Shown: positions 16,601 to 38,192, numbered from the stretch's first letter. The stretch: DNA of 64,000 bases from Verrucomicrobiota bacterium (GCA_004293445.1 RDYP01000002.1:1-64000); one strand, 5' to 3'. Notes: generated from the letters alone by a model not told the origin. Translations and numbers: made by a program.

Positions 16601-18499
16601 CATCGTCCAGCGGTTCACCTGATGAATCCGGTTGAGCAGCGGATCCGATGATTCGAAAGCGCCCGCATCGGCGAGGTCGCTCTCGATGAGCATGGCGGTG
16701 GCATCCTCCAGGTTCGGTGCGGCATCGAGCCCCTCGACAACCACATACCGGAAGCCCGCGTAGTTGAACTTGTGGTGGAACTCCTCGTTGGCGCCGCCGG
16801 CGGAGATGAATTCGCTGGTCTGGTTGTAATTCTGATAGAGATTGAATCCACCGTCTAGGCGATCAAAGGAAACGCAGCTGCCCGTGTGGACGGAGATGTT
16901 GCCAATGGGCGAAGCCTGGATGCCATCGGGAAAGACGCGGTCGGCGAAGTGCATGCGCACCAACCTGCCTGCCGGGAGTGGCGGGAACTTCAATTGCAGC
17001 CAGCCGGTGAGGTTGGTGCCGAAGTCGATGACGTAACGCCCCCCGGCCAGCGCGGTGATTTCCTGAGCGGGGATGCGAGCGCCGATGCGGTTGAAGGGCG
17101 CGTAGTGATTGGCGGGCGGCCCTGCCGGGGCGGTGGTTTCCAGGACGTTCGACCACGAGCTGGTATCGAGTCCGGGCTCGCACCAGTCGGGCAGATGTGC
17201 GGCGGCATCGATGCGTTCTCCGCCGAAGTTTCCCCAGCTCCAGTTGCCGATGTGGCTGTAGCCGCTCGGGCGGGATTTCCAATCGAGGCCGGTGCCATAG
17301 GTGAAATTCGCCCCGCCCACCACCGCGTCGAGCTGGGCGCGCACGGCGACGCGCTCCGCCCACCCCTTCGACATCCAGAGCCCGAGGCAGTTTGTGCCTG
17401 ACCTGAGCAGGCGGGCAACGTCGTAGGTGACGGTGAAAGTCCGCGTCTTCGGATCGGAAACGGCGGGAGTGAGCACGTCATCGCCGGCCTTCTCGCCGTT
17501 GACGTAGAGCTCGAAGTAGGCGTGCGAATGGACCGTCACGATGGCCGATTCCGGTATGGATGAGAGGTCGAACTCACCCAGAAGCCACGGATCGGGAGAA
17601 TTCGTGCCGACGACCGAGCCCCACGGAGCGATCCCGTAGGCACCGAGCGAAAGCGCGGGGCTCCAGGAATCGCCATTCGTGCTCGCTTCCCAAGAGTTGT
17701 TGGTCGCCACCGTCAGCGGCTCGCCGGTGGCGAAGGTGAAGTCGAAACGCGCGATCAGACCGGCGGGGTTGGCTTCGGTGCCGCCATTGGTGGCGCCGAT
17801 GGAGATGCTGTTAGAACCGCTTTGCAGGGCGGAGGTGATGTTGGCGGCGACCGGCTGCGTCCATTCGGTGCCGGATGCCACCGGCTGGCCGTTGATGGTG
17901 AGCGTGAACGAATTGTCGGCGGTGATGCGGACCTTGGCCGAGATCAGCGTGCGATCGGTGGGCAGCGTGACGGTGCGGCGGAATTGCCTTGTGGCGGGCG
18001 GCGCGTTGCTGGCGGGATTTCCTTCGTTGAACCAGATCCACTCGGCCCCATCGAAGCCGCTGGCGGAATGCGCGATCCATGTGGCCGACCAATCGGCGGG
18101 ATGCAGCAATCCCATCGTCCATTGGGATGGCGTGCTCCATGCGGATGGATTGCCATCCTTGTCCCACACGCGGACCTTCCAGTGCGCGCGCTGGCGGGAA
18201 GCGAGCGCCGCTCCGGCGTAGGGGACGTGGAGCGATTGCTCGGAGTCCACCCGGCCGCTGTCCCAGAGATCCCCGGTGCCAGCGGCGAGTTGGGCGGCCG
18301 TCGAGGCGACGAGCACCTGGTAGGCCGTCTGCTTCTGGCCGCGGGTGTGCGTGTCGTCCGCGAGTTGCCAACCCAGCGTCGGCTGGACCAGATCCACGCC
18401 GACGGGAGCGACAAGGCCCTCGCAGCGGAGGTCGGTGACTTCAATCGCGCGGGCGAAAGAAATCAGGGCAAGAATCAAGGCGATCAGGGCGGGGCGCAT
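13652..18499 (-). CDS. Secreted GH78 alpha-L-rhamnosidase with beta-strand-repeat C-terminus
   Basis: A 1615-residue secreted enzyme. A signal peptide (1-18) is followed by the GH78 N-terminal Bac_rhamnosid_N-like region (LRCEGLVAPVGVD, WKVRVWDKDG), carbohydrate-binding beta domains, and the (alpha/alpha)6 catalytic domain. That domain carries VDCPHRERMGYGDGQ (candidate general acid Glu649) and ATTLWEQWNG (candidate base Glu925). It should release terminal L-rhamnose from glycans outside the cytoplasm. From about 1110 onward come autotransporter-associated repeats (GPGALTKSGAGTLTLG, GGTTVSGGTLAVTG) and a DPDHDGASNLLERALGSDP tail ending FYRLSVR. It diverges from the second GH78 gene, which has strong similarity across the catalytic part but lacks this extension. 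A TAGCCT hexamer six bases before the ATG suggests a leaderless message. Confidence 0.93.
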   Translation of the reverse strand: MRPALIALILALISFARAIEVTDLRCEGLVAPVGVDLVQPTLGWQLADDTHTRGQKQTAYQVLVASTAAQLAAGTGDLWDSGRVDSEQSLHVPYAGAALASRQRAHWKVRVWDKDGNPSAWSTPSQWTMGLLHPADWSATWIAHSASGFDGAEWIWFNEGNPASNAPPATRQFRRTVTLPTDRTLISAKVRITADNSFTLTINGQPVASGTEWTQPVAANITSALQSGSNSISIGATNGGTEANPAGLIARFDFTFATGEPLTVATNNSWEASTNGDSWSPALSLGAYGIAPWGSVVGTNSPDPWLLGEFDLSSIPESAIVTVHSHAYFELYVNGEKAGDDVLTPAVSDPKTRTFTVTYDVARLLRSGTNCLGLWMSKGWAERVAVRAQLDAVVGGANFTYGTGLDWKSRPSGYSHIGNWSWGNFGGERIDAAAHLPDWCEPGLDTSSWSNVLETTAPAGPPANHYAPFNRIGARIPAQEITALAGGRYVIDFGTNLTGWLQLKFPPLPAGRLVRMHFADRVFPDGIQASPIGNISVHTGSCVSFDRLDGGFNLYQNYNQTSEFISAGGANEEFHHKFNYAGFRYVVVEGLDAAPNLEDATAMLIESDLADAGAFESSDPLLNRIHQVNRWTMRALNLGSYYVDCPHRERMGYGDGQVALQGMMMSFNAANFYTKWVEDWRLALEKKNESLAFIAPPFEPTGGGPPWPGNIARIPWQHYLHYGNPAILEENIDAARSYCEYLDGRSTNDVLRDWGSGFSFIGDWVPPGRGMDTSNWPSSRMAEFFSNCYRIHLWQLVGKMSTALGRTSEAAHANQRAQAISNAIHAEYFDATNSRYIIDEQIYYAFPLMVGVTPTAQQPAVLENLVRCIVEKNSGHLDTGMLGTMFLMEFLNDIGRDDLILGIYQKKDYPGWGYMVEQGATTLWEQWNGYWSQIHSCFTSADNWLYQGLAGIRPDPAQAGFKNVIIQPAEVGDITSVNASHDGPYGLITCQWQRAGLNVTLNVTIPPNSSGEIHVPASAVGEVTESGNPAATAPGVEFLRMENRHAVFAVGAGTYAFTGTLPVTLGPVVEVPAGSPLALDFSGSQTISALLLDGVLQAPGTYSAATHPDWFTGTGSLLVLPEARTWDNGANTGKWNGTDANWSGESWSPGGNATIANSAAPSTITLEGGLTASSVSIGKVSNNGAYTFTGPGSLSTGSLTIQGASGSDQSTMPTSTFTDATITVSGDLGLGRAGLVIGGNSVISAKRLGGTGIGTVSSADWGTLTLQDSAQLTVADGILGNTTAWGVKLNGGTLTTKGINYGPHAYLSSLTGLFFNGTLVRANQDNPAFLSFSGGDFTAPVVQSGGARIDTNGFAITLGLGLTGPGALTKSGAGTLTLGQASSYQGGTTVSGGTLAVTGTLGSGDLTVSNGAIAELGNASGAIADTAALRLTGSGRIHLAAGVTETVARLEVDGTLRMPGTWNAARDPLHFSGPGNLIVASGGPATPAEAWRFANFASYDNSGDSADDADPDHDGASNLLERALGSDPKAGDASGDPILHPGSPEFSFGFNRSRAATDLTVVVQTSPDLAAGSWRDSTPADGQVQLVDDSDPAVQGFRFTAAPGGTRGFYRLSVR

Positions 18500-18505
18500 T
18501 GAGAC

Positions 18506-18552
18506 AGGCTATCCGAAGCACCGGATTCCGCATGTCGCATGAACATGCGACG
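18506..18552 (-). promoter_or_regulatory. Palindromic operator (copy a) and -10 box of the GH78 gene at 13652-18499
   Basis: TGTCGCAT-GAAC-ATGCGACG at 18533-18552 contains a perfect 8-2-8 inverted repeat (18534-18551). On the minus strand TAGCCT (18506-18511) follows after exactly 21 bp and precedes the ATG by six bases. The operator centre would be near -43.5, a class II activator position. It is one of four copies in the locus. Confidence 0.75.
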
Positions 18553-18625
18553 CGCGGGGTGCGGGAGGAATTCTTGATGGATCGCGGGTGCCGCCCGTGG
18601 GTAGGGTTCCCGGACCGCGGAGCGC

Positions 18626-18645
18626 TGTCGCATGTTTATGCGACA
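18626..18645 (+). promoter_or_regulatory. Palindromic operator (copy b) before the GH78-kinase-regulator operon
   Basis: TGTCGCATGTTTATGCGACA is a perfect 8-4-8 inverted repeat ending 59 bp before the ATG at 18705. The best -10-like hexamer, TAAGGT (18688-18693), is 42 bp downstream, about two helical turns farther than in the other copies. This would fit an activator bound further upstream. Confidence 0.72.
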
Positions 18646-18704
18646 CTTCCCGTCCGGGGTTTTTGCAGCAAATCCCCGCCGGGTCCGTAAGGTCTGCCGC
18701 GCCC

Positions 18705-21608
18705 ATGATCCGATTCCACCATCGACTGGTCCAAGGAGTTCTCGCCCTGCTCCTGTCATCCCGCCTCATCGCGGCCGGCATGCAGCCGGTCGATCTCCGC
18801 TGCGAAGCGTCCACGAACCCGCTCGGCATCGACCAGCCCCGGCCGGGCCTCGGCTGGAAGCTCGCATCCGACGCGCCAGGCGCCACCCAGAGCGCCTATC
18901 AGATCGAGGTCTCCGGCGTGTGGGACAGCGGCAAGGTGACGTCCGACGCGTCGGTCGCCATCCGCTACGGCGGTCCCGCGCTGGAATCGGACAGGACCTA
19001 CAACTGGCGGGTCCGCGTGTGGGACGGCGCGGGCCGGCCGTCCCCGTGGAGCGCGACCGCGCGCTGGACGACGGGCAAGCTCCGGCCCGCCGATTGGTCG
19101 GCCACGTGGATCGGCGCGCCGGAAAGCTCCGTCGCGCCGGACTTGGAAGGCGTCGAAGTCACCCGCGCGCTCTACCGCACCACCGACGGCCGGGTTGAAA
19201 AGGACGTGACCGATCTGATGCGGCGCGCGGTCGGAGAGAAGAGGCTGCCCTTCATCGTCGACTTCAACGCCCTCGGCGGCGATCCCGCGCCGAACGTGGT
19301 CAAGGAGCTGCGCGTCGAGTACCACAAGGAGGGCAAATCCCTCGTATCACGGGCCGAAGACTTCCGCCCTCTGTCGATCCCCCCGCTGCCGCCGGATAAC
19401 GCCGCGCCGTGGTTTCGCGGCGAGTTCGACCTGCCGGCCGCGCCCGCTTCCGCGACCGTCACGGTGCACTCCCACGCCTACTTCGAACTCCACGTCAACG
19501 GCGCCAAGGCCGGCGACGACGTCCTGACCCCGGCGGTCGCCGATGCGAAATCCCGGACCTTCACCGTCACCTACGACGTCGCCCGCCTGCTCAAGCCCGG
19601 CCGGAACTGCCTCGGCCTGTGGATGTCCAAGGGTTGGGCGGAGCGCGTCGCGGTGCGCGCCCAGCTCGACGCCGTGGTCGCGGGAAAGAAGTTCACCTTC
19701 GGCACCGGCCCGGGCTGGAAGACGCTCGCCAGCGGCTACAGCCACATCGGCATGTGGCACTGGGGCGACTTCGGCGGCGAGCGGATCGACGCCGCGCACC
19801 ACCGGCCCGACTGGTGCCGGCCCGGCCTCGACACCTCGTCGTGGGCCGATGCCGTGGAAGCCCCCGCCCCGCCCGGAGCTCCCGCCAATCTCACCGGCCC
19901 GCACAACCGGATAGGCGAGCGCATTCCCGCAAAGAAGGTCACCGCGCTGGCCGACGGCCGCCACGAGATCGACTTCGGCACCAATCTCACTGGCTGGCTC
20001 CACTTGAAGTTCCCGCCGCTCAAGGCAGGACAAACGGTCCGCCTGCATTTCGCCGACCGGGTCTTCCCCGACGGCGTCCACGGCTCGCCGATCGGCGACA
20101 TCACGGTCCACTGCGGCAGCTGTGTTTCCTTCAAGCGCCAGGACGGCGGCCAAAGCCTCTATCAGACCTTCAAGCAGACCAGCGAGTTCGTCGCCGCCGG
20201 CATCCCGGGCGAGGACTTCCAGCACAAGTTCAACTACGCCGGCTTCCGCTACGTCGTCGTCGAAGGCCTCGACACCGCGCCGCGCGTCGCCGACGCTACC
20301 GCCCTTCTGGTCGAGAGCGACCTCGCCGATGCCGGCTCCTTCGAGTGCTCCGACCCGCTGCTCAACCGGATCCACCGCGTCAACCGCTGGACGATGCGCG
20401 CCCTGAATCTCGGCGGCTACTACGTCGACTGCCCGCACCGCGAGCGCATGGGCTACGGCGACGGTCAGGTCGCCCTGCAGGGCATGATGATGAATTTCGA
20501 CGCCGCGGAATTCTACGCCAAGTGGGCCCGCGACTGGCGCCTCGCCCTCGACCGCAAGCACGAGCACCTGCCCTACATCGCTCCGCCCTTCGAGAAGACC
20601 GGCGGCGGCCCGCCCTGGCCCGGAAACATCGTCCTCATCCCGTGGCAGCACTTCCTCCACTACGGCGATCCCGCCATCCTCGAGGAAAACCTCGCCGCCG
20701 CGCGGAGCTACTGCGAGTATCTCGACGGCCGCTCGCCCGGCGACGTCCTGCGCGACTGGGGCGGCGGCTTCACCTTCATCGGCGACTGGGTCCCGCCCGG
20801 CCGCGGCATGGACACCAACAACTGGCCGAGCTCCCGGATGGCCGAATTCTTCTGCAACTGCTACCGCGTCCACCTCTGGCAGATCGTCGGCAGGATGGCC
20901 GGCGCGCTCGGCCGCAAGGACCAAGCGGAACACGCCCGCCAGCGCGCGGACGCCATCGGCCGGGCCACCCACGCCACCTACTTCGATCCGGTGGAGAAGC
21001 GCTACGTCGCCGACGAGCAAATCTACTACGCCTTCCCCCTGAAGGTCGGCGTCACGCCGGAGGCCGAGCGCGCCGCGGTGCTGGCGAATCTCGAACGCTG
21101 CATCGTGGAAAAGAACAAGGGCCACCTCGACACCGGCATGCTGGGCACCCCGCTGCTGATCGAATACCTCCAGGAAATCGGCCGCGACGACCTGATCCTC
21201 GGCATCTATCAGAAAAGGGACCACCCCGGCTGGGGCTACATGATCGAGCAAGGCGCGACCACCCTGTGGGAACAATGGAACGGCCACTGGTCGCAGATCC
21301 ACTCCTGCTTCACCTCCGCCGACAACTGGCTCTACCAAGGCCTCGCCGGCATCCGCCCGGACCCCGCCAAGCCCGGCTTCAAGAACGTCATCATCAAGCC
21401 CGCCGTCGTCGGCGACATCACCTGGGTGAAAGCCCACCACGACGGCCCCTACGGCCGCATCTCCAGCCACTGGCAGCGCGACGGCGACCGGCTCCGCCTC
21501 GACCTCACCATCCCGCCGAACAGCAGCGCCACCGTCGTCCTGCCCGGCAAGGCGCCGCAACAGGTCGCCGCCGGCAGCCACCGCCTCCACGCCACGCTGC
21601 GGGAATGA
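18705..21608 (+). CDS. Secreted GH78 alpha-L-rhamnosidase
   Basis: A 967-residue enzyme with signal peptide (about 1-24, GVLALLLSSRLIAAG). An N-terminal beta domain (LRCEASTNPLGIDQPRPGLG, WRVRVWDGAG) is followed by binding domains and the GH78 catalytic domain with VDCPHRERMGYGDGQ (Glu580) and ATTLWEQWNG (Glu856). The C-terminal beta domain contains HHDGPYGRI and IPPNSSATVVLPG, a common GH78 ending. It acts on alpha-L-rhamnosides outside the cytoplasm. It is first in an operon with the glycosidase-like kinase (25 bp downstream) and its regulator. An in-frame start upstream at 18588 would put the operator inside the gene; ATG 18705 directly precedes the signal peptide. An unidentified insert (about 145-230) distinguishes it from the divergent paralogue. 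Confidence 0.93.
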   Translation: MIRFHHRLVQGVLALLLSSRLIAAGMQPVDLRCEASTNPLGIDQPRPGLGWKLASDAPGATQSAYQIEVSGVWDSGKVTSDASVAIRYGGPALESDRTYNWRVRVWDGAGRPSPWSATARWTTGKLRPADWSATWIGAPESSVAPDLEGVEVTRALYRTTDGRVEKDVTDLMRRAVGEKRLPFIVDFNALGGDPAPNVVKELRVEYHKEGKSLVSRAEDFRPLSIPPLPPDNAAPWFRGEFDLPAAPASATVTVHSHAYFELHVNGAKAGDDVLTPAVADAKSRTFTVTYDVARLLKPGRNCLGLWMSKGWAERVAVRAQLDAVVAGKKFTFGTGPGWKTLASGYSHIGMWHWGDFGGERIDAAHHRPDWCRPGLDTSSWADAVEAPAPPGAPANLTGPHNRIGERIPAKKVTALADGRHEIDFGTNLTGWLHLKFPPLKAGQTVRLHFADRVFPDGVHGSPIGDITVHCGSCVSFKRQDGGQSLYQTFKQTSEFVAAGIPGEDFQHKFNYAGFRYVVVEGLDTAPRVADATALLVESDLADAGSFECSDPLLNRIHRVNRWTMRALNLGGYYVDCPHRERMGYGDGQVALQGMMMNFDAAEFYAKWARDWRLALDRKHEHLPYIAPPFEKTGGGPPWPGNIVLIPWQHFLHYGDPAILEENLAAARSYCEYLDGRSPGDVLRDWGGGFTFIGDWVPPGRGMDTNNWPSSRMAEFFCNCYRVHLWQIVGRMAGALGRKDQAEHARQRADAIGRATHATYFDPVEKRYVADEQIYYAFPLKVGVTPEAERAAVLANLERCIVEKNKGHLDTGMLGTPLLIEYLQEIGRDDLILGIYQKRDHPGWGYMIEQGATTLWEQWNGHWSQIHSCFTSADNWLYQGLAGIRPDPAKPGFKNVIIKPAVVGDITWVKAHHDGPYGRISSHWQRDGDRLRLDLTIPPNSSATVVLPGKAPQQVAAGSHRLHATLRE

Positions 21609-21633: not shown

Positions 21634-24501
21634 GTGATCCGACTTCCCTCCATGCTTTCCGGCACCGCGGTATGGTTCGTCCTGTGCGCGGGTGCCCTCC
21701 CCGTCCGCGCCGGCGACCCGCCCGGCCCGCGGCTGGCGGACGACGGCCGCTCGCTGGAGCTCCGCCCGCCTGGACTCCCGCCCCTCGATTGCCGCTGGGC
21801 GGCCACCATCGGACGCGATGGCAAGCGATGGACCCTTGCCCCGGACGGCGGCGGACCGGACCGCGCGCCCGAAGTCCGCGAATCCTCCCCGACCGGCCTG
21901 ACTTGGGTGCTCGGCTTCCCGGAACAAGGAGCCGAACTGTGGTTCCGCGTCCGGCTGGAGGAAGGTTCCGTCTGGTGCGCGCGCGCCGGGGTGCGGAACA
22001 GCGGCGACGAAGCCTTCCAGCTCTTCGACACCACCCCGCTCCAAGCCAACCTGCGGCTCGGCGATCCCGGCGGCTGGCTGCTGACCGGCCTCCACCCGCG
22101 GACCCCGGTTCTCGCCGCAGCGCCCGGCCCCGGCGCGGAAGTCCGGATCCACGAGCACGGTTCGCTTTACCGCCCGGACGGCCTCGGCTTCGTCTTCGGC
22201 CCGGTCGGCGATCCGGTCACCCACGCGGAGTTCACTTGGAAGCCCGGCGCGGCGGACCTCGTGACGATGACCGCGGTCACGCCGATGGACGGCGTGCGGG
22301 TCGAACCGGGCGAAACCCGCTGGGGGCAGGAGGTTGCGATCCTGCCCGGCGAGCCCCGCGCCGCGATCGGACGATGGGCCGCGATGGTCGCCCGCTCCCA
22401 CGGCGCGCTCCTCGGCGCCGGCGCCCTGTCCGGCTGGAACAACTGGAACTACCTCGCCAAAAAAGACGTCCGCCGCGAACTGCTGGAAGTCGTCGATGTC
22501 GTCCGCGATTCCTCCGGCCGTCTGCGGCCCGGGGTCGTCCAGATGGACTACAACTACTCCGACTCCGAGCTCAAGAGCGCCCTCTCCTCCGACTGGGTGC
22601 CCGATTACCGCGACCGCGTCGGCCAGCTCGGCGCCCGCTTCGGCACCCATATCGGAGTCGGCGGTCCGGGCTGGCCGGGGCTCGCCGGTCTGCCCGAACT
22701 GACCGCCACCGTCACCCGCGCGGTCGCCGCCGGCCTCACCTACCTGAAGGTCTTCTACCCCGCCTCCCGCGCCGCCAGCGACGGCCGCCGCACCGCCTTC
22801 GAGGTCTATCGCGACGACTGGTCCGCCATCCGCCGCGCCGCGGGCGAGGCCGCATATCTGCTGTTCTGCGACTACGAACCCCACCGCGCCGCCATCGGGC
22901 GGGTCGATGCCAGCCGCGTCGGCCCCGACGCCGACCGCGGCAAGGTCAGCCGGGCCATCCCCTCGTTCCTGCGCTCCCTGCCGCTGCACGACCGCTGGTT
23001 CGCGATCGACGGCGACAGCTACTTCACCGGCACCGACATCGCCAACATCAGCCGCATCGAGGGCAGCTGGCCGCTGGTCCGCACCTGGCTGAGCATGACC
23101 GGCCTCTCCTGCGGTGCCGCCATCACGTCCGACCCCTGGTATTGGGACGATTTGAAGCCCTACTGGCGGAACGTCGAAATCCTCACCCCGCCGGCCCGCG
23201 AACGCACCGAGGTGATGGATCTGGGCACCGACAAGGAATGGCCGCGCCTGCTCGGCCACGTCCGCCGCGACTGGGGGCGCTTCACCGTGGCCCTGCTGTG
23301 GAATCCGGCCGCGACCGAGCGCACGGTCACGCTCGACTTCGCCAAGGCCGGCATGGACCCGGCGCAACGCTACGCCGTGTGGTCCTTCTGGGACGACCGC
23401 TACCTCGGCGTCGCCCAGGGTTCCTGGACCACCCCGCGGCTCGGCCCCGCCGCCTCCCAGCACCTGGTCTTCACCGCCCTCGACCCCGCCCCGGAACGAC
23501 CGGTGCTGATCGGGTCAAACCTCCACATCTACTGCGGTGCCGCCGAGATCCGGCAGCTCGCCAGCGACCGCGATTCGCTGTCCATCGACCTCACCGACGC
23601 CGGCGCGCGGGACGGAGACCTCTACCTCTACAGCCGCCTCCAGCCCATCCTCGCCGCCGCCTCCGGCTGCACCGTCAGCGGCATCACCAGCGCCGGCGAA
23701 AACGTCTGGCGCCTCAGCCTCCACGACCGCCGCCCCGGCGCGCCTCAGCGCATCGAACTCGCCATCCAGCTCCCCGCCAACCGCCAGCCCTGGTTCTGGA
23801 TCCTCATCGCCACCGTGGCCCTCAGCCTGCTCTTCGCCGCCTGGCGCTACGTCGTCGGCCTGCGCCTCGAACGCGCCCTCGCCCTCGACCGCGAACGCGC
23901 CCGCATCGCCCGCGACATCCACGACGACCTCGGCGCCAGTCTCACCCACATCGCCCTCCTCGGCGAACTCGCCCAGAACGACATCGACCGCCCGGAGCGC
24001 GCCCGCGTCCACGTCGACGACATCTTCCGCGCCGCGTGCAAGCTGACCCGCTCGGTCGACGAGATCGTCTGGGCCCTCAATCCCTCCAACGACAGCATCC
24101 CCCGCTTCGCCGCCTACGTCGGGGACTTCACCCAGGAATTCCTCCAGTCCGCCGACATCGGCTGCCGCCTGTCCATCCCCGCCGACCTGCCCGGCCGCCC
24201 GCTGCCGCCGAAGGTCCGCCACGAGCTCTTCCTCGCCATCAAGGAGGCGCTCCACAACATCGTCTCCCACGCCGCGGCTTCCTCCGCCCGCCTGGAAATC
24301 TCGATGCGCGGGGACCACCTGCGCGTCTTGATCGCCGACGACGGCCGCGGATTCGACCCCGCCTCGCCCGCCCCCGGCCGTCCCGGCGGCGGACACGGCC
24401 TTGCCAACCTCCGCCAACGGATGCAGGAAGTCGGAGGATCCTTGGAAATCCTCAGCTCGCCCGGCGGCGGGACCACCGTCGTGCTCGAAGTGAAACCATG
24501 A
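21634..24501 (+). CDS. Histidine kinase with alpha-galactosidase-like ectodomain
   Basis: A 955-residue predicted membrane sensor. A signal peptide (about 1-26) precedes a beta-rich region (30-245) and a segment (about 260-620) resembling GH27/GH36 alpha-galactosidases: GALSGWNNWNYL, VVQMDYNYSD, LTYLKVFYP, GAAITSDPWYWDD and VALLWNP. In active enzymes the nucleophile is the Asp of K-x-D; here the site reads K372-V-F374, so hydrolysis is unlikely, while SD at 499-500 may match the acid region. A second beta domain leads to one membrane helix (719-741). The cytoplasmic part is HisKA_3 (ARIARDIHDDLGAS, His763) plus an ATPase (Asn875, DDGRGFDP, GHGLANLRQRM). It presumably binds a glycan outside and phosphorylates the overlapping regulator. 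The start is GTG 21634; ATG 21652 is an alternative. Confidence 0.88.
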   Translation: MIRLPSMLSGTAVWFVLCAGALPVRAGDPPGPRLADDGRSLELRPPGLPPLDCRWAATIGRDGKRWTLAPDGGGPDRAPEVRESSPTGLTWVLGFPEQGAELWFRVRLEEGSVWCARAGVRNSGDEAFQLFDTTPLQANLRLGDPGGWLLTGLHPRTPVLAAAPGPGAEVRIHEHGSLYRPDGLGFVFGPVGDPVTHAEFTWKPGAADLVTMTAVTPMDGVRVEPGETRWGQEVAILPGEPRAAIGRWAAMVARSHGALLGAGALSGWNNWNYLAKKDVRRELLEVVDVVRDSSGRLRPGVVQMDYNYSDSELKSALSSDWVPDYRDRVGQLGARFGTHIGVGGPGWPGLAGLPELTATVTRAVAAGLTYLKVFYPASRAASDGRRTAFEVYRDDWSAIRRAAGEAAYLLFCDYEPHRAAIGRVDASRVGPDADRGKVSRAIPSFLRSLPLHDRWFAIDGDSYFTGTDIANISRIEGSWPLVRTWLSMTGLSCGAAITSDPWYWDDLKPYWRNVEILTPPARERTEVMDLGTDKEWPRLLGHVRRDWGRFTVALLWNPAATERTVTLDFAKAGMDPAQRYAVWSFWDDRYLGVAQGSWTTPRLGPAASQHLVFTALDPAPERPVLIGSNLHIYCGAAEIRQLASDRDSLSIDLTDAGARDGDLYLYSRLQPILAAASGCTVSGITSAGENVWRLSLHDRRPGAPQRIELAIQLPANRQPWFWILIATVALSLLFAAWRYVVGLRLERALALDRERARIARDIHDDLGASLTHIALLGELAQNDIDRPERARVHVDDIFRAACKLTRSVDEIVWALNPSNDSIPRFAAYVGDFTQEFLQSADIGCRLSIPADLPGRPLPPKVRHELFLAIKEALHNIVSHAAASSARLEISMRGDHLRVLIADDGRGFDPASPAPGRPGGGHGLANLRQRMQEVGGSLEILSSPGGGTTVVLEVKP

Positions 24502-25145
24502 GTCGAAAACCCCCAGCCAACGCCCTTTCCGTCGCCGTCGTCGAGGACGACCCGCGCGTCCGGCGCAGCCTCGTCGAGATCCTCGCCCAGGACCCCGGCT
24601 GCGTTTGCGCGGGCGACTACGCCAGCGGCGAGGACGCGCTCGCCGGCCTGGCGGAACAACCCGCCCGCGTGGTGATCATGGACATCCACCTTCCCGGCAT
24701 CACCGGCGTGGAATGCGTCGCCCGACTCGCCCCGCTCTGTCCGGACACCCAGTTCATCATGCTCACCGTGGCCAAGGACACGGACAACCTGTTCAACGCC
24801 CTCGCCGCCGGAGCCGCCGGCTACCTGCTCAAGCCGGTGCGGGCCAAGGAACTGCTCGCCGCGATCCGGGACGCCCACCAGGGCGGCGCGCCGATGACCA
24901 GCAGCATCGCCCGCCAGGTCGTCGCCGCCTTCCACCGCAAGCCGGCATCACCCTGCGAGGAATCCCTCTCCGACCGCGAACAGGAGGTCCTCCGCCTCCT
25001 CTCCGAAGGCCTCCTCTACAAGCAGGCCGCGGCCGAGATGGGTGTCAGCGTCAACACGCTGTGCGAATACATCCGCCGGATCTACCGCAAGCTCCAGGTC
25101 CACTCGCGGCAGGAAGCCATCGAGCGCTACCGCCGGCGCGGATGA
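24498..25145 (+). CDS. LuxR/NarL-family response regulator
   Basis: A 215-residue regulator. The receiver domain has VVEDDPR (acidic pair), phosphoacceptor Asp62 in VVIMDIHLPG, Thr in MLTVAKD and Lys in YLLKPVR. The LuxR-type HTH starts at LSDREQEVLRLLSEG; its recognition region reads VSVNTLCEYIRRIYRKLQV, where most relatives have TVKxHxxxI. The start ATG overlaps the kinase stop (ATGA), so the two are translationally coupled partners. The most economical target is the palindrome found four times around it, including upstream of its own operon, implying autoregulation; this is inference. Copy c of the palindrome begins 13 bp after its stop. Confidence 0.93.
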   Translation: MSRKPPANALSVAVVEDDPRVRRSLVEILAQDPGCVCAGDYASGEDALAGLAEQPARVVIMDIHLPGITGVECVARLAPLCPDTQFIMLTVAKDTDNLFNALAAGAAGYLLKPVRAKELLAAIRDAHQGGAPMTSSIARQVVAAFHRKPASPCEESLSDREQEVLRLLSEGLLYKQAAAEMGVSVNTLCEYIRRIYRKLQVHSRQEAIERYRRRG

Positions 25146-25157
25146 GGCGCGGCGCGG

Positions 25158-25205
25158 TGTCGCATGCTTATGCGACACGACAGGTCCAACGACTTGGCAT
25201 AGTCT
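25158..25205 (+). promoter_or_regulatory. Palindromic operator (copy c) and -10 box of the long beta-repeat gene
   Basis: TGTCGCATGCTTATGCGACA (25158-25177) is a perfect 8-4-8 inverted repeat. TAGTCT (25200-25205) lies 22 bp downstream and 50 bp before the ATG at 25256. No T-tract follows the palindrome, so it is not a terminator for the preceding regulator gene. Confidence 0.75.
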
Positions 25206-25255: not shown

Positions 25256-27961
25256 ATGAAACCCTCCATCCGCAATCCCTTCGTCGTCCTCGCCCTGTCC
25301 GCCTGCTTCGTTGCCGCCGCCCGCGCCCAAAGCACCCTCCTTGCCGACAACTTCACGGTGACCGGCACGCCCGGCACCTCGGACGTCAATTTCAACCTCG
25401 CCGGCCGCCAGTCCGGCACCCAGGCCCCCGGCACCTGGACCACCAGCGGCAACGTCCAGGCCGGCAACAACTACGCCGGCTTCGGCCAGCCCACCGGCGA
25501 TTTCCTGCTGGTGGCGGACGGCGGGGCGAACGCCCGCCTCGACGGCCTCGTCCTCAGCTCCGCCCTGGTCGGCCCGAACGAGAAGCTGGTCGTGAGCTTC
25601 AAGGCCGACACCGTCGTCGAGTACGGAGACGCCTCGAACTGGATGAGCTTCATGATCAGCCCCTCTTCGGCCTCCGGCCTTTGGCACCCAGTGGTCGGCT
25701 CCGGCGACTTCGGCATGCTGATCCGCGGCAACGGCCAGGTCCAGGCCTTCAACAACGGCGTGGTCATACCCGGCATGAACAACGTCTCCCTCGCCAGCTC
25801 GGCGATCAACACCATCACCCTCACCTTCAGCGGAGCCGATGGCGCCGGCTCGCCCTTCGCCGGCAATGGCACCCTGGCGGTCATTTCCGACGGCACCAAC
25901 TCCTGGTCCACCACTCTCGATACCGGTTTCACCACCGAAACCATCAGCTTCGGCAGCGCCGCCAACGGCGTGCGCGGCTTCGTCGACGACCTGAGCGTCA
26001 CCACCGAACCCTCCTTCCCGCTCGGCCGCTGGAGCGGCGAAACGAACGGAACCTGGGACGCCTCCACTGTGAACTTCTCCGGCAAGTCGTTCACACAGAT
26101 GAAGATCGACGGCACCACCACCGCCACCTTCGCCGACATCGACGGCAGTGGAAATCCGGTGAGCGTGAACGACCTGACCGTGGCCCCCGGCGGCGCGGAG
26201 ATCGCAGAGGTGGCCTTCACCAACAATTCCGTCGACTACACGCTGAACAGCGCCGACACCAGCGGCATCACGGGAGCCACCAACCTGTCGAAGAGCGGCT
26301 CCGGCCTGCTCACCCTCGCCGGCGAGAACTCCTACTCCGGCACCACGACCATCAGCAACGGCACACTCGCCCTCTCCGGCGGCGACAACCGCCTGCCCGT
26401 CGCCACCGCCCTTACCCTCGCCAGCCCCGGCGTGCTCCGCCTCGATGGCAACAACCAGGAGGTCGCCGGCCTCGCCGGCAACGGCCGGGTGGTGAACGGC
26501 AACGCCACCCCCGCCACCTTCACGGTCAGCAACAGCGCCGCCGCCACCTTCTCCGGCAATCTTGGCGGCCCCGGCACCGACGAAAACAATCTGGCGCTGG
26601 TCAAGAGCGGTGCCGGCACGCTGAACCTCACCGCCGCCAGCAGCCACACGGGCGGCACCAGCATCGCCGACGGCACCCTCTCGCTGAACCTCGAGCCCGC
26701 CGGCTTCGCGAACAACGCGATCGGTCCCGCCACCTCGAGCAACATCGTCACCATCGACAACGGCGGCGTCCTCACCAGCGACGGCTTCCGCAACAACTGG
26801 CTCGGCAACACCGGCGTCGCCTCCGGCGGCGCCAACGCCGTCTCCGTCGTCGTGAATGCCGGCGGCACGCTCAAGGGCGCCACCAACCGCATCACCGGCC
26901 TCGGCAACGTCAACCTCAACGGCGGCACCATCGAGGTGTCCGACGGTCTGACCGGCTTCGGCTGGTTCGCCTCGTTCAACCTCGGCGGCGATCTCACCGT
27001 CGGCGGCAGCGTCCCCTCGTCCATCACCACGTCCCTGGGCGCCGGAGCCTCCGCCAACTTCCAGCTGGCGGACGGCGCCAACAGCACTTCCGGGGGCGGC
27101 ACCCGCACCGTCACCGTCGCCGATGTCACCGGCGACGCCGCTCCCGACCTGCTGGTCGGCGCCCGCCTGTCCAACGGCACGCTGTTCAAGGATGGCACGG
27201 GCACCGTGGAGATCACCGCCGGCGCGTCCGGCACCGGTTCCCCGGTCAGCTGGGAAATCAACGCGGGCGCCTTCGTACTCGCCAACGCCACCCCCTTCGA
27301 GTTCCGCGTGAACAACACCGGCTCGAACCGGGTCTTCGAAGCCTCCGGCGGCAACGGCTCCGCCACCTTCAACGGCATCCTCGACATCGACACCAGCGCC
27401 GTGACCCTCACCACCGGCGCGATCTGGTCGCTCATCGACGTCGCCGGCCTCGGCGTCGGCTTCGGCCCCAACTTCTCCGTCGCCGGTTTCGCCGGGCCGG
27501 ACCTCAACGGCAACTGGACCAAGACCGACACCGTCGGCAACTGGTCCTTCTCCCCGACCACCGGCGAGCTGACGCTCGACGTCGGCAGCGACTACGACAC
27601 CTGGAAGGACGACAACAACGTTACGGGCGGCGAAAACGACGACGACGACAACGACGGCCTGACCAACTTCGAGGAATACGCCTTCGGTCTCGACCCGCAA
27701 AGCGGCGCGTCCTCCGGCCCCATCACCACGGCCCTCGACAAGACCGCCAGGACCTTCAGCTACACCCGCCGCGACTCGACGCTCACCGACCTCGCCTATT
27801 CGGTCTGGTTCTCGACCAATCTGACCGACTGGACCGAGGACACCGACGCCACCGAGAACGCCGTGCTGAACGGCGAAGTCGAAACCGTGGAAGTCACGCT
27901 TTCCAACGCCGCCGGCAACCCGCTCCCGGGCCGCCTCTTCGTCCAGGTCCGCGCCAACTGA
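25256..27961 (+). CDS. Long secreted beta-strand-repeat surface protein
   Basis: A 901-residue protein with signal peptide (about 1-23, ending ARAQ). Residues about 25-250 form a lectin-like beta module (LLADNFTVTG, NYAGFGQPTGDFLLVAD, VVGSGDFGMLIRGNG, RGFVDDLSV). It is closely related to the whole of the next protein. Autotransporter-associated repeats follow (LSKSGSGLLTLAGENSYSG, LVKSGAGTLNLTAASSHTGG). It ends with the tail DDDDNDGLTNFEEYAFGLDP, SYTRRDSTLTDL and LFVQVRAN. There is no C-terminal barrel, so it is not a self-contained autotransporter. It may bind or display glycan-related ligands outside the cell. The reading begins at ATG 25256, in frame with the signal peptide; the frame is open far upstream but overlaps the regulator. 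Function unproven. Confidence 0.88.
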   Translation: MKPSIRNPFVVLALSACFVAAARAQSTLLADNFTVTGTPGTSDVNFNLAGRQSGTQAPGTWTTSGNVQAGNNYAGFGQPTGDFLLVADGGANARLDGLVLSSALVGPNEKLVVSFKADTVVEYGDASNWMSFMISPSSASGLWHPVVGSGDFGMLIRGNGQVQAFNNGVVIPGMNNVSLASSAINTITLTFSGADGAGSPFAGNGTLAVISDGTNSWSTTLDTGFTTETISFGSAANGVRGFVDDLSVTTEPSFPLGRWSGETNGTWDASTVNFSGKSFTQMKIDGTTTATFADIDGSGNPVSVNDLTVAPGGAEIAEVAFTNNSVDYTLNSADTSGITGATNLSKSGSGLLTLAGENSYSGTTTISNGTLALSGGDNRLPVATALTLASPGVLRLDGNNQEVAGLAGNGRVVNGNATPATFTVSNSAAATFSGNLGGPGTDENNLALVKSGAGTLNLTAASSHTGGTSIADGTLSLNLEPAGFANNAIGPATSSNIVTIDNGGVLTSDGFRNNWLGNTGVASGGANAVSVVVNAGGTLKGATNRITGLGNVNLNGGTIEVSDGLTGFGWFASFNLGGDLTVGGSVPSSITTSLGAGASANFQLADGANSTSGGGTRTVTVADVTGDAAPDLLVGARLSNGTLFKDGTGTVEITAGASGTGSPVSWEINAGAFVLANATPFEFRVNNTGSNRVFEASGGNGSATFNGILDIDTSAVTLTTGAIWSLIDVAGLGVGFGPNFSVAGFAGPDLNGNWTKTDTVGNWSFSPTTGELTLDVGSDYDTWKDDNNVTGGENDDDDNDGLTNFEEYAFGLDPQSGASSGPITTALDKTARTFSYTRRDSTLTDLAYSVWFSTNLTDWTEDTDATENAVLNGEVETVEVTLSNAAGNPLPGRLFVQVRAN

Positions 27962-27972
27962 AGCCGTCGTCC

Positions 27973-28019
27973 TGTCGCATGTTCATGCGACAGGACAAAG
28001 CCCGCCCGTTCGCTAGACT
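27973..28019 (+). promoter_or_regulatory. Palindromic operator (copy d) and -10 box of the PEP-CTERM gene
   Basis: TGTCGCATGTTCATGCGACA at 27973-27992, extended to a 10-4-10 inverted repeat by flanking CC/GG. TAGACT (28014-28019) follows after 21 bp, and the ATG at 28052 is 32 bp further on. Because it lies 12 bp after a stop it could be mistaken for a terminator, but no T-run follows and the other copies precede genes. Confidence 0.75.
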
Positions 28020-28051
28020 CCCCGCTTCCCAACCTTCCCCGTTCCTGACCC

Positions 28052-28867
28052 ATGAAAGCAAAAACCTCCCTCGCCACCGCCCTGCTCGGACTCTCCGTCG
28101 CCGGACCCGCCGGCGCCGCGTTGATCCTTTCCGACAACTTCACGGACACCACCCCGGGCGACACCTACCAACAGGTCAACGAGAACCTCTCCACCCGGCA
28201 GGCCGGCTCGCAGGCGACGCAGATCTGGAGCGGGGCGGGCAATTACCAGGTGGGCAACAACTACCCCAATTTCGGCCAGCCCACCGGCGACTTTCTCCTG
28301 ATCGCGGACCAAGCCGGAAACGCGCGCCTCGACAGCTTGTTCCTGAATTCTTCCCTGGTTCCAAGCAATGAGATGCTGGTGATCCGGTTCGACACGGACA
28401 CCCACATCGAATACGGAGACCCTTCGAACTGGTTGAGCTTCATGATCAGTCCATCGGCCGGCGATGGGACCTGGCATCCGGTGGTCGGCTCGGGCGACTT
28501 CGGGATGTTGATCCGCGGCAACGGCCAGATCCAAGCCTTCAACAACGGCGCGGTCGTCGGCGGGATCAACAATTTCTCCCTGGCCAGCGCCGGCATCAAC
28601 ACCATCACCCTCACCTTCAGCGGCCTCGACGGCACCGGCTCGCCCTTCGCGGGCAACGGCACCCGGGTCAACATCTCCGATGGCACCAATTCCTGGAATG
28701 CCAACCTCGATACCGGCCTGACCACCGAAACCATCAGCTTCGGGACTTTCGGAAACGGCACCCGCGGTTTCGTGGACAACCTCTCGATCTCCACCGTCCC
28801 CGAGCCGGCCGTCTCCCTCCTCGGCGGCCTCGGCCTGCTCGCCCTGCTGCGCCGCCGGCGCCCGTGA
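28052..28867 (+). CDS. PEP-CTERM surface protein, short partner of the 901-aa protein
   Basis: A 271-residue exported protein. A signal peptide (1-22) is followed by one beta module closely matching the N-terminal module of the preceding gene (NYPNFGQPTGDFLLIAD, VVGSGDFGMLIRGNGQIQAF, TLTFSGLDGTGSPFAGNG, RGFVDNLSIS). The C-terminus is a classical PEP-CTERM signal: VPEP, a hydrophobic run and LLRRRRP. Such signals are cut by an exosortase, which is not in the window, and the protein is then placed at the surface or in extracellular matrix. The gene has its own copy of the palindromic operator, so it is probably co-regulated with, but transcribed separately from, the long protein. Confidence 0.92.
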   Translation: MKAKTSLATALLGLSVAGPAGAALILSDNFTDTTPGDTYQQVNENLSTRQAGSQATQIWSGAGNYQVGNNYPNFGQPTGDFLLIADQAGNARLDSLFLNSSLVPSNEMLVIRFDTDTHIEYGDPSNWLSFMISPSAGDGTWHPVVGSGDFGMLIRGNGQIQAFNNGAVVGGINNFSLASAGINTITLTFSGLDGTGSPFAGNGTRVNISDGTNSWNANLDTGLTTETISFGTFGNGTRGFVDNLSISTVPEPAVSLLGGLGLLALLRRRRP

Positions 28868-30568: not shown

Positions 30569-32584
30569 ATGTTCCCTTCCCGCCTCATCGCCGCCTGCTG
30601 CCTCATCCTCGCAGCCCCCACCGCAGTCGGCCAAATCCGCAGCCTTGCGGAACTCCGGGCCCTACCGCTCAAGATCGCATCCTCCCGCGTGCCAGTGGAA
30701 GTCGAGGGCACCACACTGTATTCCGACCTCACGACCGGAGCGCTGATCGTGCACGATGGCAACGCCGCATGTTACATCGAACTTTGGCAGAATCCTCGCC
30801 CACAGGTCGGTGATCGGGTGCGACTCGCCGGCCACTCCAACGCTCCGGGCTACCTGCCTCACCTCGTCGTCCCCCAGCTGGAAATCCTCGGCCGCGGGGA
30901 CCTGCCCAAACCCCACCTCCTCGCACCGGGAGAAATCCATCAGCCACAATTCGACACCGGCTGGGTCGAAGTCCCAGCCCTCGTCACCGGCGTGGAAAGC
31001 GGCGGCCTCGCCTACACCCTCGCCGTCGAAATCTACGGCCAAACCTTCAAGGCCGACATCCCCCTGACCCCGGACGCCGTCGATCGCGCCGCGCGACTGA
31101 TGCAGCGCCAGGTCCGCATGACCGCCGTCCTCGCGACCGTTTACAACGAAAAGCGCCAAATGACGGGCCGCCACTTCTTCGTACCTTCCTTCGATCACCT
31201 CGTCCTCGATGGACCCGACATCGACCCCTCCACCCCACGCCCGTTGAAGATCGCCGACATGCTCGTCAGCGACAACAGCCCCACCGATCTCATCCGCATC
31301 GAAGGCACCATCACCCAGCTCGATCCCAAAGGCTTCCACCTCCGCGACTCCTCCGGCAGCACCCTCGTCATCACCCCGTCGCGCCACGAACTCCAAGCCG
31401 GAGCACGCGTCGTGATCGATGGCTTTGGCACCATCTCCCCCTTCCGCCCCGTCCTTCGCGCCATCACGGTGACAAAAACCGGCCAAAGCGCACCGCCCCC
31501 GGCCTTGCCCATCGACTTTCACCCCAAAGACGGGCCCAACCAACACCTCGAACTCGTCCACCTCAAAGCAGAATACCTCGGCCTCCGTACCGCGAAAGAC
31601 GAGGCCATCCTTCAATGCCGCAGCGGGAACGATATCTTCGAGGCCATCCTCCCGCTGCCCTCTCCCCAACACCCCAAACTCATCCCCGGCGACCAACTCG
31701 CCCTCACCGGCATCTGCGAACTCATCACCAATCACCCCCTGCCACGTCTCGAATGGGTCACCGGCTTCAGGCTCCAACTCGCCGATAGCTCCGCCATCCA
31801 AATCCTCCACCGCGCCCCATGGTGGAACACCCGCCGTCTCCTCATGGCCCTCGCCGCGACCAGCGGCACCGCAATGATCTTCGGCTCCGGCGTCTTCGCC
31901 CTCCGCCGCCGGGTCAAAAAACAGGTCGGCATCATCACCGCCGAACTCGAAAAACGCGCCGTCGCCACCGAACGCGAACGCATGGCCCGCGACCTCCACG
32001 ACACACTCGAACAGCAACTCACCGGCGTCGCCATGCAACTCGAAAGCCTCGCCCACTCCCCCCACCAGAAATCCCCCGTCGTCGCCGAACGCCTGAACCT
32101 CGCCAGCCGAATGCTCCGCCACTCCCGCGAAGAGGCGCGACGCTCCGTATGGGACCTCCGCAACCGGATGCTCGAAATCCACGGCCTCGGGCACACCCTC
32201 CACAGCCTCGCCAGCGCCGCCTTGGTCGACGATGGACCGCGGATCGATGCCTTCGTCGACACTTCCCCCACCGGCCTCAGCCCCGGCACCGACTACCAAC
32301 TCCTCCGCATGGCCCAGGAGGCTCTCACCAACGCCCTCAAACACGCCGCTGCCTCGCACATCACCCTCACCCTCTCCCTCGCCGCCGACCATTGCCTCCT
32401 CAGCGTGAAAGACGACGGCATCGGCTTCGACCCCCTCATCGTCAATCCGCACCAAGCCCCCCACTTCGGGCTGCTCGGCCTCCGCGAGCGCGCGGAAAAA
32501 ATCGGTGCCACCCTTACCATCAGCACCCAACCCGGCGAAGGCTGCGCCGTCAGCATCAAAGTCCCAATCCCCAACGCATCTTGA
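30569..32584 (+). CDS. Sensor histidine kinase (HisKA_3 type) with OB-like ectodomain
   Basis: A 671-residue membrane kinase. A signal peptide (1-21) is followed by a periplasmic region of about 395 residues that looks like three repeats of a small beta-barrel unit (VEVEGTTLYSD..GALIVHDG; IRIEGTITQLDPKGFHLRDSSG; LVHLKAEYLGLR..AILQCRSG), reminiscent of OB-fold modules. One helix (about 421-446) crosses the membrane. The cytoplasmic part has RMARDLHDTLEQQLTG with phosphorylated His477, an ATPase with EALTNALKHA and DDGIGFDP, and HFGLLGLRERAEKIG. It is coupled to the overlapping regulator gene. The ligand is unknown; downstream surface-protein genes suggest an envelope or polymer signal. Confidence 0.9.
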   Translation: MFPSRLIAACCLILAAPTAVGQIRSLAELRALPLKIASSRVPVEVEGTTLYSDLTTGALIVHDGNAACYIELWQNPRPQVGDRVRLAGHSNAPGYLPHLVVPQLEILGRGDLPKPHLLAPGEIHQPQFDTGWVEVPALVTGVESGGLAYTLAVEIYGQTFKADIPLTPDAVDRAARLMQRQVRMTAVLATVYNEKRQMTGRHFFVPSFDHLVLDGPDIDPSTPRPLKIADMLVSDNSPTDLIRIEGTITQLDPKGFHLRDSSGSTLVITPSRHELQAGARVVIDGFGTISPFRPVLRAITVTKTGQSAPPPALPIDFHPKDGPNQHLELVHLKAEYLGLRTAKDEAILQCRSGNDIFEAILPLPSPQHPKLIPGDQLALTGICELITNHPLPRLEWVTGFRLQLADSSAIQILHRAPWWNTRRLLMALAATSGTAMIFGSGVFALRRRVKKQVGIITAELEKRAVATERERMARDLHDTLEQQLTGVAMQLESLAHSPHQKSPVVAERLNLASRMLRHSREEARRSVWDLRNRMLEIHGLGHTLHSLASAALVDDGPRIDAFVDTSPTGLSPGTDYQLLRMAQEALTNALKHAAASHITLTLSLAADHCLLSVKDDGIGFDPLIVNPHQAPHFGLLGLRERAEKIGATLTISTQPGEGCAVSIKVPIPNAS

Positions 32585-33198
32585 AAACCCACACTCGACT
32601 CCTCGTGGCCGACGACCACGTCATGATCCGCCTCGGCCTCGCCGCCCTCGTCGCCGATCTCCCCGACATCGAAATCATCGGCGAAGCACGTAACGGCAAG
32701 GAAGCCGTCGAACTTCACGCGGCCCTACGACCCGATGTGACCGTGATGGATGGCATCTTGCCCGACTTCCATGGCGTCGAAGCCACCCGGCGCATCCTCG
32801 AGCAGGACCCCGACGCGAAGGTCATCATCCTCTCCATCAACGAGTCCGCCGAGGATATCCGCCGCGCGATGGACGCCGGAGCCATCGGCTACGTCCCAAA
32901 ATCACGCCACCAGGAAGTCCTCCTCCGCGCCATCCGCGAGGTCGCCGCCGGCCGCCGATTCCTCGATCCCGATCTCGAAAGGCTCATCGCCGACCGCACC
33001 ACCACCAACCTCAGCCAGCGGGAGCTCGATGTCCTGCGCCTCATCGCCAACGGCCTCCTGAACAAGCAAATCGCCGTCAAGCTCGCCCTCTCGGAGAACA
33101 CGGTCAAAACCCACATCGCCCGCATCATGGGCAAGCTGGGCGTCCACGACCGCACCAGCCTAGCGATGAAAGCCGTCACCCTCGGACTGCTGCGCTGA
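32581..33198 (+). CDS. LuxR/NarL-family response regulator
   Basis: A 205-residue regulator starting at TTG 32581, which overlaps the kinase stop as TTGA. The receiver begins TRLLVADDHVMIRLGL and has Asp57 in VTVMDGILPD, Ser in ILSINESAED and Lys in YVPKSRHQ. The HTH domain reads LSQRELDVLRLIANGLLNKQIA and LSENTVKTHIARIMGKLGV, the canonical NarL form. It is the evident partner of the upstream kinase. An inverted repeat 38 bp beyond its stop, in front of the next beta-repeat gene, is a plausible target. Confidence 0.93.
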   Translation: MKTHTRLLVADDHVMIRLGLAALVADLPDIEIIGEARNGKEAVELHAALRPDVTVMDGILPDFHGVEATRRILEQDPDAKVIILSINESAEDIRRAMDAGAIGYVPKSRHQEVLLRAIREVAAGRRFLDPDLERLIADRTTTNLSQRELDVLRLIANGLLNKQIAVKLALSENTVKTHIARIMGKLGVHDRTSLAMKAVTLGLLR

Positions 33199-33225
33199 CC
33201 CCTCCCCATCGCCCACCAGCCCCAT

Positions 33226-33280
33226 TCACCCGATCGGGTGACAATCACCCGCTAGGCAGAATTCTCAAAATCGCTAGCGT
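33226..33280 (+). promoter_or_regulatory. Inverted-repeat operator candidate and -10 box before the 1315-aa gene
   Basis: TCACCCGATCGGGTGA (33226-33241) is a perfect 16-bp palindrome, and a third arm TCACCC (33245-33250) makes GGGTGA-CAA-TCACCC with its second half. A TAGCGT hexamer at 33275-33280 places the centre of the second repeat near -44. That matches the operator geometry of the first locus although the sequence differs. The palindrome alone could end the regulator transcript, but no T-run follows. Confidence 0.55.
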
Positions 33281-33366
33281 CTCCCTCACCCATCGTCCCC
33301 CCACCCCCGGATTTTCATCAAAGAATCGATCTCCGATATCTCACAAACCCGAAGCCCCTATTACCC

Positions 33367-37314: not shown

Positions 37315-37328
37315 ACTCCCCTTGGGAA

Positions 37329-37348: not shown

Positions 37349-37439
37349 ACAAACCACCCTCTCGCGCTTCACCATCCTCAAGATCTAAAACCACTCGGCA
37401 ATTCACCTCTCCGGCCACAAACCCAACTTGTTCCAGAAA

Positions 37440-38192
37440 ATGAAATTGAAAGCCCTACGACCGCTCCTGTCATTCGCTGCCCTCACAGGCTCGATGCAGG
37501 CATCGACTTTGTTGTTTTCGGATAATTTCAACACTCCCAGCTACAACTGGCAGGAATTCAACAACTCCCTTGCCGCAGACCAAAGCGGCACTTTAACGAT
37601 ACCCGTTCCCGTCACCTATTCCACCAGCAACGGGGATGGATATACGGCTCAGCACAGCAATGGCGGCACCATGCTTTTGACCTCGGATGGTTGGGGTGGC
37701 TACGGGGCGATGGCTAGCCCGAACCACAACTTCGCGGTCGACGCGAACACGGCGAACAAGCCTTTGCAGATCCAATTCGACATGTGGGCCGTTGCAGGCG
37801 ACGCCCCCGACTGGATCGGCTTTGGCCTGAACAGCGGCCAAGGTCAGCTGTTCTACGAAGGTGCCTACGGATTCGCCACCACGGTCGGCGATGGCAAGCA
37901 CAACTACAAGCTTGTGATCTCGGATAGCGCTGGAACCGGCTCCGGGTTCAATGGCATCACCAACGGTGCAAAAATCGAATTCTTTAAGAACAACGTCTTA
38001 CAGCAAACGATTACCGAGACCCTCAGCACCACCGACGGATACATCACCTTCAGGACGATTCCGTCAGCTTGGACCGGTTGGAACATCGGCCATGTGGACA
38101 ACCTAGCCGTCACCCTAGTCCCCGAGCCCGGTGCCGCACTACTTGGTGGCCTCGGCTTCCTCACACTGCTCCGCCGCAGACGCAACGCCTGA
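37440..38192 (+). CDS. PEP-CTERM surface protein, short partner of the 1315-aa protein
   Basis: A 250-residue exported protein. A signal peptide (about 1-20) is followed by a single beta module very similar to the N-terminal module of the upstream gene at both protein and DNA level, for instance the stretch encoding TFRTIPSAWTGWNIGHVDNL. The C-terminus is a PEP-CTERM signal: VPEPGAALLGGLGFLTLLRRR. The likely start is ATG 37440; a TTG at 37428 is in frame but adds no signal-like sequence. It sits 125 bp after the long gene and probably arose by duplication of the module. Sorting would need an exosortase encoded elsewhere. Confidence 0.91.
   Translation: MKLKALRPLLSFAALTGSMQASTLLFSDNFNTPSYNWQEFNNSLAADQSGTLTIPVPVTYSTSNGDGYTAQHSNGGTMLLTSDGWGGYGAMASPNHNFAVDANTANKPLQIQFDMWAVAGDAPDWIGFGLNSGQGQLFYEGAYGFATTVGDGKHNYKLVISDSAGTGSGFNGITNGAKIEFFKNNVLQQTITETLSTTDGYITFRTIPSAWTGWNIGHVDNLAVTLVPEPGAALLGGLGFLTLLRRRRNA

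Follow-up and report, generated by a model that had tools for sequence, protein, structure and literature searches.

Organization of the locus

Two neighbouring genes encoding a long protein of 901 aa and a short protein of 271 aa lie in the analysed window (the whole stretch of 64,000 nucleotides from a Verrucomicrobiota bacterium). Both reading frames were found where an earlier note, made from the sequence, had placed them. The features of this first pair and its surroundings are presented in Table 1. The common N-terminal module that the earlier note had described was recovered by BLASTP with 65% identity over 243 residues (residues 13-253 of the long protein against residues 10-251 of the short protein, E 2e-101), and the string VVGSGDFGMLIRGNGQ is identical in the two modules. 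The shared stretch starts inside the putative signal peptide and stops where the PATR repeats of the long protein or the PEP-CTERM segment of the short protein start.

After the module, the long protein continues with PATR beta-strand repeats (PF12951, E 2e-15, Pfam) and ends in a tail with the EYAFGLDP motif. The N-terminus of the short protein, read by eye, has a basic start, a hydrophobic stretch and a small-residue site, and its end, VPEPAVSLLGGLGLLALLRRRRP, combines a PEP motif, a hydrophobic stretch and a basic cluster, as in PEP-CTERM proteins. Against the PEP-CTERM model PF07589, the whole protein scored exactly the curated cut-off of 20.7 bits, and the score in the genome scan was 25.2 bits. 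The genome harbors one clear exosortase (PF09721, E 3e-46, at C12:129187). At the sequence level, the assignment of the short protein as a putative PEP-CTERM/exosortase client is sound.

The order of histidine kinase, response regulator, long gene and short gene recurs at 30569-38192 with a module unlike that of the first pair.

Table 1 Features of the two long/short pairs and their neighbourhood in the window
Feature	Position	Strand	Remarks
Alpha-L-rhamnosidase (GH78 domains)	13652..18499	-	Pfam; PATR repeat; weak version of the C-terminal tail (E 5e-7)
Palindromic operator copy	18533..18552	.	1 mismatch
Palindromic operator copy	18626..18645	.	0 mismatches
Second alpha-L-rhamnosidase (GH78)	18705..21608	+	Pfam; divergent from the first
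NarL-type histidine kinase	21652..24501	+	Pfam; sensor region related to GH36 alpha-galactosidases (profile match)
LuxR/NarL-type response regulator	24498..25145	+	Pfam; only response regulator of the cluster; probable palindrome binder
Operator of long gene	25158..25177	.	0 mismatches; TAGTCT at 25200, 22 nt beyond
Long protein, 901 aa	25256..27961	+	Putative signal peptide, then shared module (about 25328-26014), PATR repeats and tail (27590-27958)
C-terminal tail of long protein	27590..27958	+	TSP3-like acidic loop NDDDDNDGLTNFEEYAFGLDP and Ig/FnIII-like beta-sandwich
Operator of short gene	27973..27992	.	Arms reach 12 bp (27969-27996); TAGACT at 28014, 21 nt beyond
Short protein, 271 aa	28052..28867	+	Putative signal peptide, then shared module (about 28118-28792) and PEP-CTERM (28793-28861)
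Histidine kinase before second pair	30569..32584	+	Pfam
LuxR-type response regulator before second pair	32581..33198	+	Pfam
Different palindrome, TCACCCGATCGGGTGA, upstream of second long gene	33226..33241	.	Occurs once in the window, no more than expected by chance
Long protein of second pair, 1315 aa	33367..37314	+	Second module type, five PATR stretches, tail
Short protein of second pair	37440..38192	+	Second module and PEP-CTERM; 78% to long partner over 200 aa
DUF6055/LamG protein	38569..43857	+	Internal copy of second module, tail
Third GH78 rhamnosidase	47998..52128	+	Copy of second module, tail

Predicted fold of the shared module

Pfam gave no lectin match for the long or the short protein, and the module has no significant sequence match in the PDB. 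The AlphaFold model of the short protein is of moderate confidence (pLDDT 64.5, pTM 0.69). The modelled module forms a two-sheet jelly-roll that superimposes on ERGIC-53 (Z 14.2, rmsd 3.4 over 179 residues) and on the inserted domains of the sialidases BT_1020 and Am1547 (Z about 14), and an L-type-lectin/ConA fold is predicted for it. The term "binding module" used in the earlier note thus holds at the level of the predicted fold, but a lectin fold alone does not prove sugar binding. Together with the carbohydrate context, i.e., the rhamnosidases at this locus and the fucosidase, sulfatase and galactosidase partners elsewhere, the modelled fold favours glycan binding as the probable function.

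A shared operator and its candidate regulator

The claim that an operator precedes each gene is borne out: the palindrome TGTCGCAT-N4-ATGCGACA is present with no mismatch upstream of both genes, at a distance of 78 nt from the ATG of the long gene and 59 nt from that of the short gene. At up to three mismatches, the window contains 5 matches against 0.24 expected. With 0-1 mismatch, the 20-bp palindrome occurs at only four sites in the 3.35-Mb genome, all between 18533 and 27992; the copies at 18533 and 18626 sit between the divergent GH78 alpha-L-rhamnosidase genes. Because the operator sequence is the same at both genes of the pair, it indicates co-regulation rather than separate control.

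The response regulator at 24498-25145 is co-oriented with the NarL-type kinase at 21652-24501 and lies directly behind it. The periplasmic region of this kinase, searched as a profile built from three such kinases, matches alpha-galactosidases in the PDB (E 8e-11). We infer that the regulator binds the palindrome, which appears to be positioned like a class II activator site, and that it would turn on both rhamnosidases and the long and short genes together. A terminator function of the intergenic palindrome is disfavoured, since inspection of the sequence by eye showed no T run after it. The idea that every pair is governed by this operator was also rejected: the second pair has another palindrome upstream and no copy between its genes, and no palindrome was found in the 31- and 45-bp intergenic gaps of the C4 and C27 pairs.

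The C-terminal tail of the long protein

A key question is whether the two C-termini are different sorting signals, as the earlier note had stated. This part of the claim stands for the short protein, in which PEP-CTERM is recognised and for which an exosortase is present. For the EYAFGLDP tail, which matches no curated sorting family, it is at most putative. The tail is modelled (pLDDT 90.6) as a helix followed by an acidic TSP3-like loop and an Ig/FnIII-like sandwich. The tail model has 38 matches in this genome, of which 11 are strong. Formally, the tail behaves like a sorting module, being modular, abundant and C-terminal; this sorting role is putative, and the tail is a widespread, unclassified C-terminal domain. 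No export machinery for the tail was found. Delivery of one module by two routes at once, which the earlier note had proposed, is plausible; the half of this reading that concerns the exosortase is supported, and the half that concerns the tail is putative.

The same tail makes it possible, if somewhat doubtful, that both proteins share one destination: the EYAFGLDP segment would then be a calcium-stabilised C-terminal cap or an adhesive domain, and the pair would be one binder made in two lengths. Such a role agrees with the structure of the tail, which folds as a domain of about 120 residues and has neither a membrane helix nor a basic cluster, and with its best structural matches in Foldseek, which are generic FnIII/Ig domains (Z 6); no known sorting domain was among these matches, although this does not exclude one. 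Likewise, the NCBIfam sorting models matched neither the long protein nor any of 22 tails, and the sole recurring NCBIfam hit among the tails was Amuc_1099-like and covered the acidic loop. A mere cap or adhesive domain is harder to reconcile with the placement of the tail, which ends within about 9 residues of the C-terminus in 58 of 73 cases on otherwise unrelated proteins (rhamnosidases, sulfatases, fucosidases, LamG and PATR proteins), and with the finding that the tail and PEP-CTERM were never seen on one protein in the pairs inspected.

Recurrence of long/short pairs

The earlier note had made its reading depend on the existence of similar pairs elsewhere, and these were found both in this genome and in related genomes; its observation is correct and broader than could be seen from the window. 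Statements on the genome as a whole are based on searches of it and on the stretches retrieved. This genome contains six long/short pairs that share a module or region, with identities of 64-79%: C21a (65%), C21b (78%), C1a (79%), C1c (71%), C4 (64%) and C1b (79% over 680 aa, with the short gene upstream). The modules are mostly pair-specific, and for the short proteins of C1a and C1c the only match is the long protein of the same pair or one next to it. In C27, the genes are adjacent, and comparison revealed no common region. Five sharing pairs (32-79%) were identified in G147, which belongs to another genus of the family; one of them is the counterpart of C1a, and one is in the order kinase, response regulator, long gene, short gene. 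One module-sharing pair was found in G388. The common part in C4 and C1b, and in L128 and L132 of G147, consists of beta-repeat regions and not of a compact lectin-like module.

In this genome, 7 of the 11 strong-tail genes have a PEP-CTERM gene directly downstream (binomial P about 2e-14, assuming 14 PEP genes in 3000). In other genomes of the same genus, most strong-tail genes have no PEP-CTERM neighbour, which at first pointed to a confinement of the pairs to two lineages. This view was overturned by sampling from the PEP-CTERM side; the strong-tail search had understated the pairs because the partners in the same genus have more divergent tails. The survey covered 40 PEP-CTERM loci of the same genus chosen regardless of their neighbours, 20 from the best-scoring hits and then 20 spread down the list, and scored a non-PEP gene within two genes that shared the module, with other genes of 120-450 aa from the same stretches serving as controls. 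Because the genes were defined with a simple codon-usage caller, some individual start positions may be inaccurate. A non-PEP neighbour with a common module was present for 12 of 42 sampled PEP-CTERM genes compared with 10 of 173 controls (odds ratio 6.5, Fisher p 1e-4), and the other 30 of the 42 had no such partner. Of 16 long partners, 10 carried the tail, compared with 3 of 97 among other proteins with a length of 350 aa or more (p 3e-8). The long partners in the survey included an alpha-L-fucosidase, two sulfatases, an alpha-galactosidase, a GDSL esterase and a BNR_4 protein. At L177, one of the surveyed loci, a FecR-type anti-sigma protein has the shared module as well.

Module type 1 as a widespread family was rejected, since it is present in 3 of 384 genomes of the class; type 2 is present in 6 of the 384.

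Age of the pairs

The pair modules differ by dS 0.66-2.7 with dN/dS 0.12-0.36, indicating that both copies are old and constrained by purifying selection. Recent duplication or recent gene conversion as a general explanation is disfavoured by dS values of 0.66 or more. For C1a and its cross-genus counterpart, the identity is 73% between the long proteins and 70% between the short proteins, while the crosses give 67 and 68% and the identity within the own-genome pair is 84%. The tree test (AU 0.77 against 0.31) does not decide between the topologies, and the data fit an old duplication with some local homogenisation.

These data bear on another explanation, in which tandem duplication and domain shuffling left the shared module as residual homology, with no functional pairing. 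PEP-CTERM families expand paralogously, and homologous pairs with and without PEP-CTERM had already been noted (PMC1569441); moreover, neighbour sharing is observed for 6% of other genes as well. We nevertheless judge this explanation improbable, given that the odds of sharing are 6.5-fold above that background, that the same layout occurs with several different modules, that both copies are constrained at such divergence, and that one pair has a cross-genus counterpart, even though its tree is undecided. Homotypic docking, in which identical modules would associate and the exosortase-sorted short protein would keep its long partner or enzyme on the surface, is by analogy conceivable because lectin jelly-rolls can dimerise, the two modules of a pair resemble each other more than they resemble further copies in this genome and short proteins often comprise little beyond module and anchor, but it has an equally small chance of being correct, as module identity has drifted to 60-65% in some pairs and module copies also occur inside rhamnosidases that have no dedicated short partner.

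Proposed role of the pairs

The explanation that we prefer, and to which we give about an even chance, is that the long and short proteins are co-regulated glycan-binding surface partners of a polysaccharide-utilisation locus, one sorted by exosortase and one bearing the tail. The kinase with the GH36-like sensor and the LuxR-type regulator would switch on the two rhamnosidases and both partners through the shared palindrome, and both partners would bear the same lectin-like (ConA/L-type) module for the substrate of the locus. The exosortase would sort the short protein through its PEP-CTERM segment, and the protein may be retained on the cell surface or within the exopolysaccharide. In the long protein, the module would be carried on a beta-repeat stalk ending in a calcium site and an Ig-like domain, and this tail probably fixes the protein elsewhere in the envelope or allows its release. 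Since the long partner is often an enzyme in related genomes, the general design could be that of a tethered binder combined with a delivered binder-effector of the same specificity. A more far-reaching version, in which a general two-fate scheme replaces SusC/D in the polysaccharide loci of Akkermansiaceae, seems rather unlikely to us. In it, the substrate-recognition module of each locus would be placed both on a surface protein sorted by exosortase and on a long secreted protein or enzyme, and the TSP3/Ig-like tail of the latter would be a second, hitherto undescribed C-terminal sorting signal with its own machinery.

To our knowledge, the function of PEP-CTERM proteins after sorting is poorly known. 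The co-regulated partners may show how bacteria that feed on polysaccharides retain this food on the cell surface, and they offer a concrete, testable model for holding and attacking polysaccharide, in which each exosortase client has a natural non-exosortase control in its pair partner.

Comparison with known systems

The short protein resembles clients of the PEP-CTERM/exosortase system (TIGR02595/PF07589, EpsH) in its PEP motif, hydrophobic stretch, basic cluster and putative signal peptide and in the presence of an exosortase. The difference is that here a neighbour carries the same module with another C-terminus, under a regulator of the kinase/LuxR type. Regulation of PEP-CTERM genes by sigma-54/PrsK/PrsR is described in Proteobacteria (PMC1569441), and PEP-CTERM proteins of Akkermansia have been detected by proteomics (PMC4960237). 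Haft et al. 2006 noted homologous proteins differing in PEP-CTERM and used them only to delimit the 24-residue module; adjacency, an alternative tail, co-regulation and enzyme partners are features of the present pairs that do not appear in the part considered (PMC1569441). The literature searched did not yield an account of the neighbour layout and its recurrence, of the tail or of the enzyme partners.

SusD and the SGBPs of Bacteroidota PULs are functionally analogous, as substrate-specific surface binders in regulated polysaccharide loci, whereas the pair proteins have no SusC/D homology. SusCD has been reported to be missing in MAGs of marine Verrucomicrobiota, and complex algal polysaccharides are broken down by Verrucomicrobiota without this surface complex (PMC8857213). 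There is thus scope for a different way of binding substrates at the surface.

The tail also recalls the C-terminal domain of type IX secretion in that a modular Ig-like C-terminus is present on many secreted proteins, but there is no NCBIfam T9SS match for the long protein or the 22 tails; a search for SprA returned 0 matches in this genome, as it did in the control genomes. With autotransporters (TIGR02601/PF12951), the long protein shares the PATR repeats, but Pfam and NCBIfam gave no beta-barrel translocator match, and the protein ends in the TSP3/Ig-like tail: its C-terminus models as a helix and an Ig-like domain rather than as an autotransporter barrel.

Sensor kinases and regulators beside tail proteins

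The periplasmic part (~700 residues) of the NarL-type histidine kinase beside the first pair is related to GH36 alpha-galactosidases, a relationship found in two further kinases from fetched genomic stretches (table). Because the position aligned with the catalytic-nucleophile motif of the GH36 enzyme (YFKIDF) varies among the three kinases, their sequences suggest that the sensor part is a glycan-sensing pseudo-enzyme.

At five loci (L089, L095, L097, L144 and L145), histidine kinase and response regulator genes precede a tail protein that lacks a PEP-CTERM partner; thus, the regulator-plus-tail-protein layout extends beyond the pairs. The overlapping palindromes upstream of the second long gene, of which no further copy was found elsewhere in the window, may be the second regulator's site. 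At L177:3175-8588, from the same-genus PEP-CTERM survey, a short PEP-CTERM protein and a long protein adjoin an ECF-sigma-like gene and a FecR-type anti-sigma gene, with a module common to the anti-sigma (58%) and to the short and long proteins (86%).

Positions of the kinases and palindromes
Feature	Position	Remark
Histidine kinases with GH36-related periplasmic part	21652-24501; L069:8624-11356; L067:1689-4244	Profile E 8e-11
Overlapping palindromes TCACCCGATCGGGTGA and CGGGTGACAATCACCCG	33226-33252	Upstream of second long gene

Tail comparison and additional genes

Of the 22 tails, 11 gave a weak match (best E 2e-5) to NCBIfam NF042425 (Amuc_1099 pilus-like system protein), which in the window tail is confined to the acidic loop. 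Two divergent, closely similar GH78 rhamnosidases lie at 13652-21608, and only one carries an added PATR and tail-like C-terminus.

In a PEP-CTERM protein at L071:8651-11320 (C28:364650-367319), the frame runs ~33 residues beyond the PEP-CTERM segment, which would reflect a lost stop, a frameshift or an assembly error. A pilin-like 139-aa gene (MKLT..AKGMTLLELTVVILVLLSL) is present in three tandem copies at L079:16274-17862 (C21:80274-81862).
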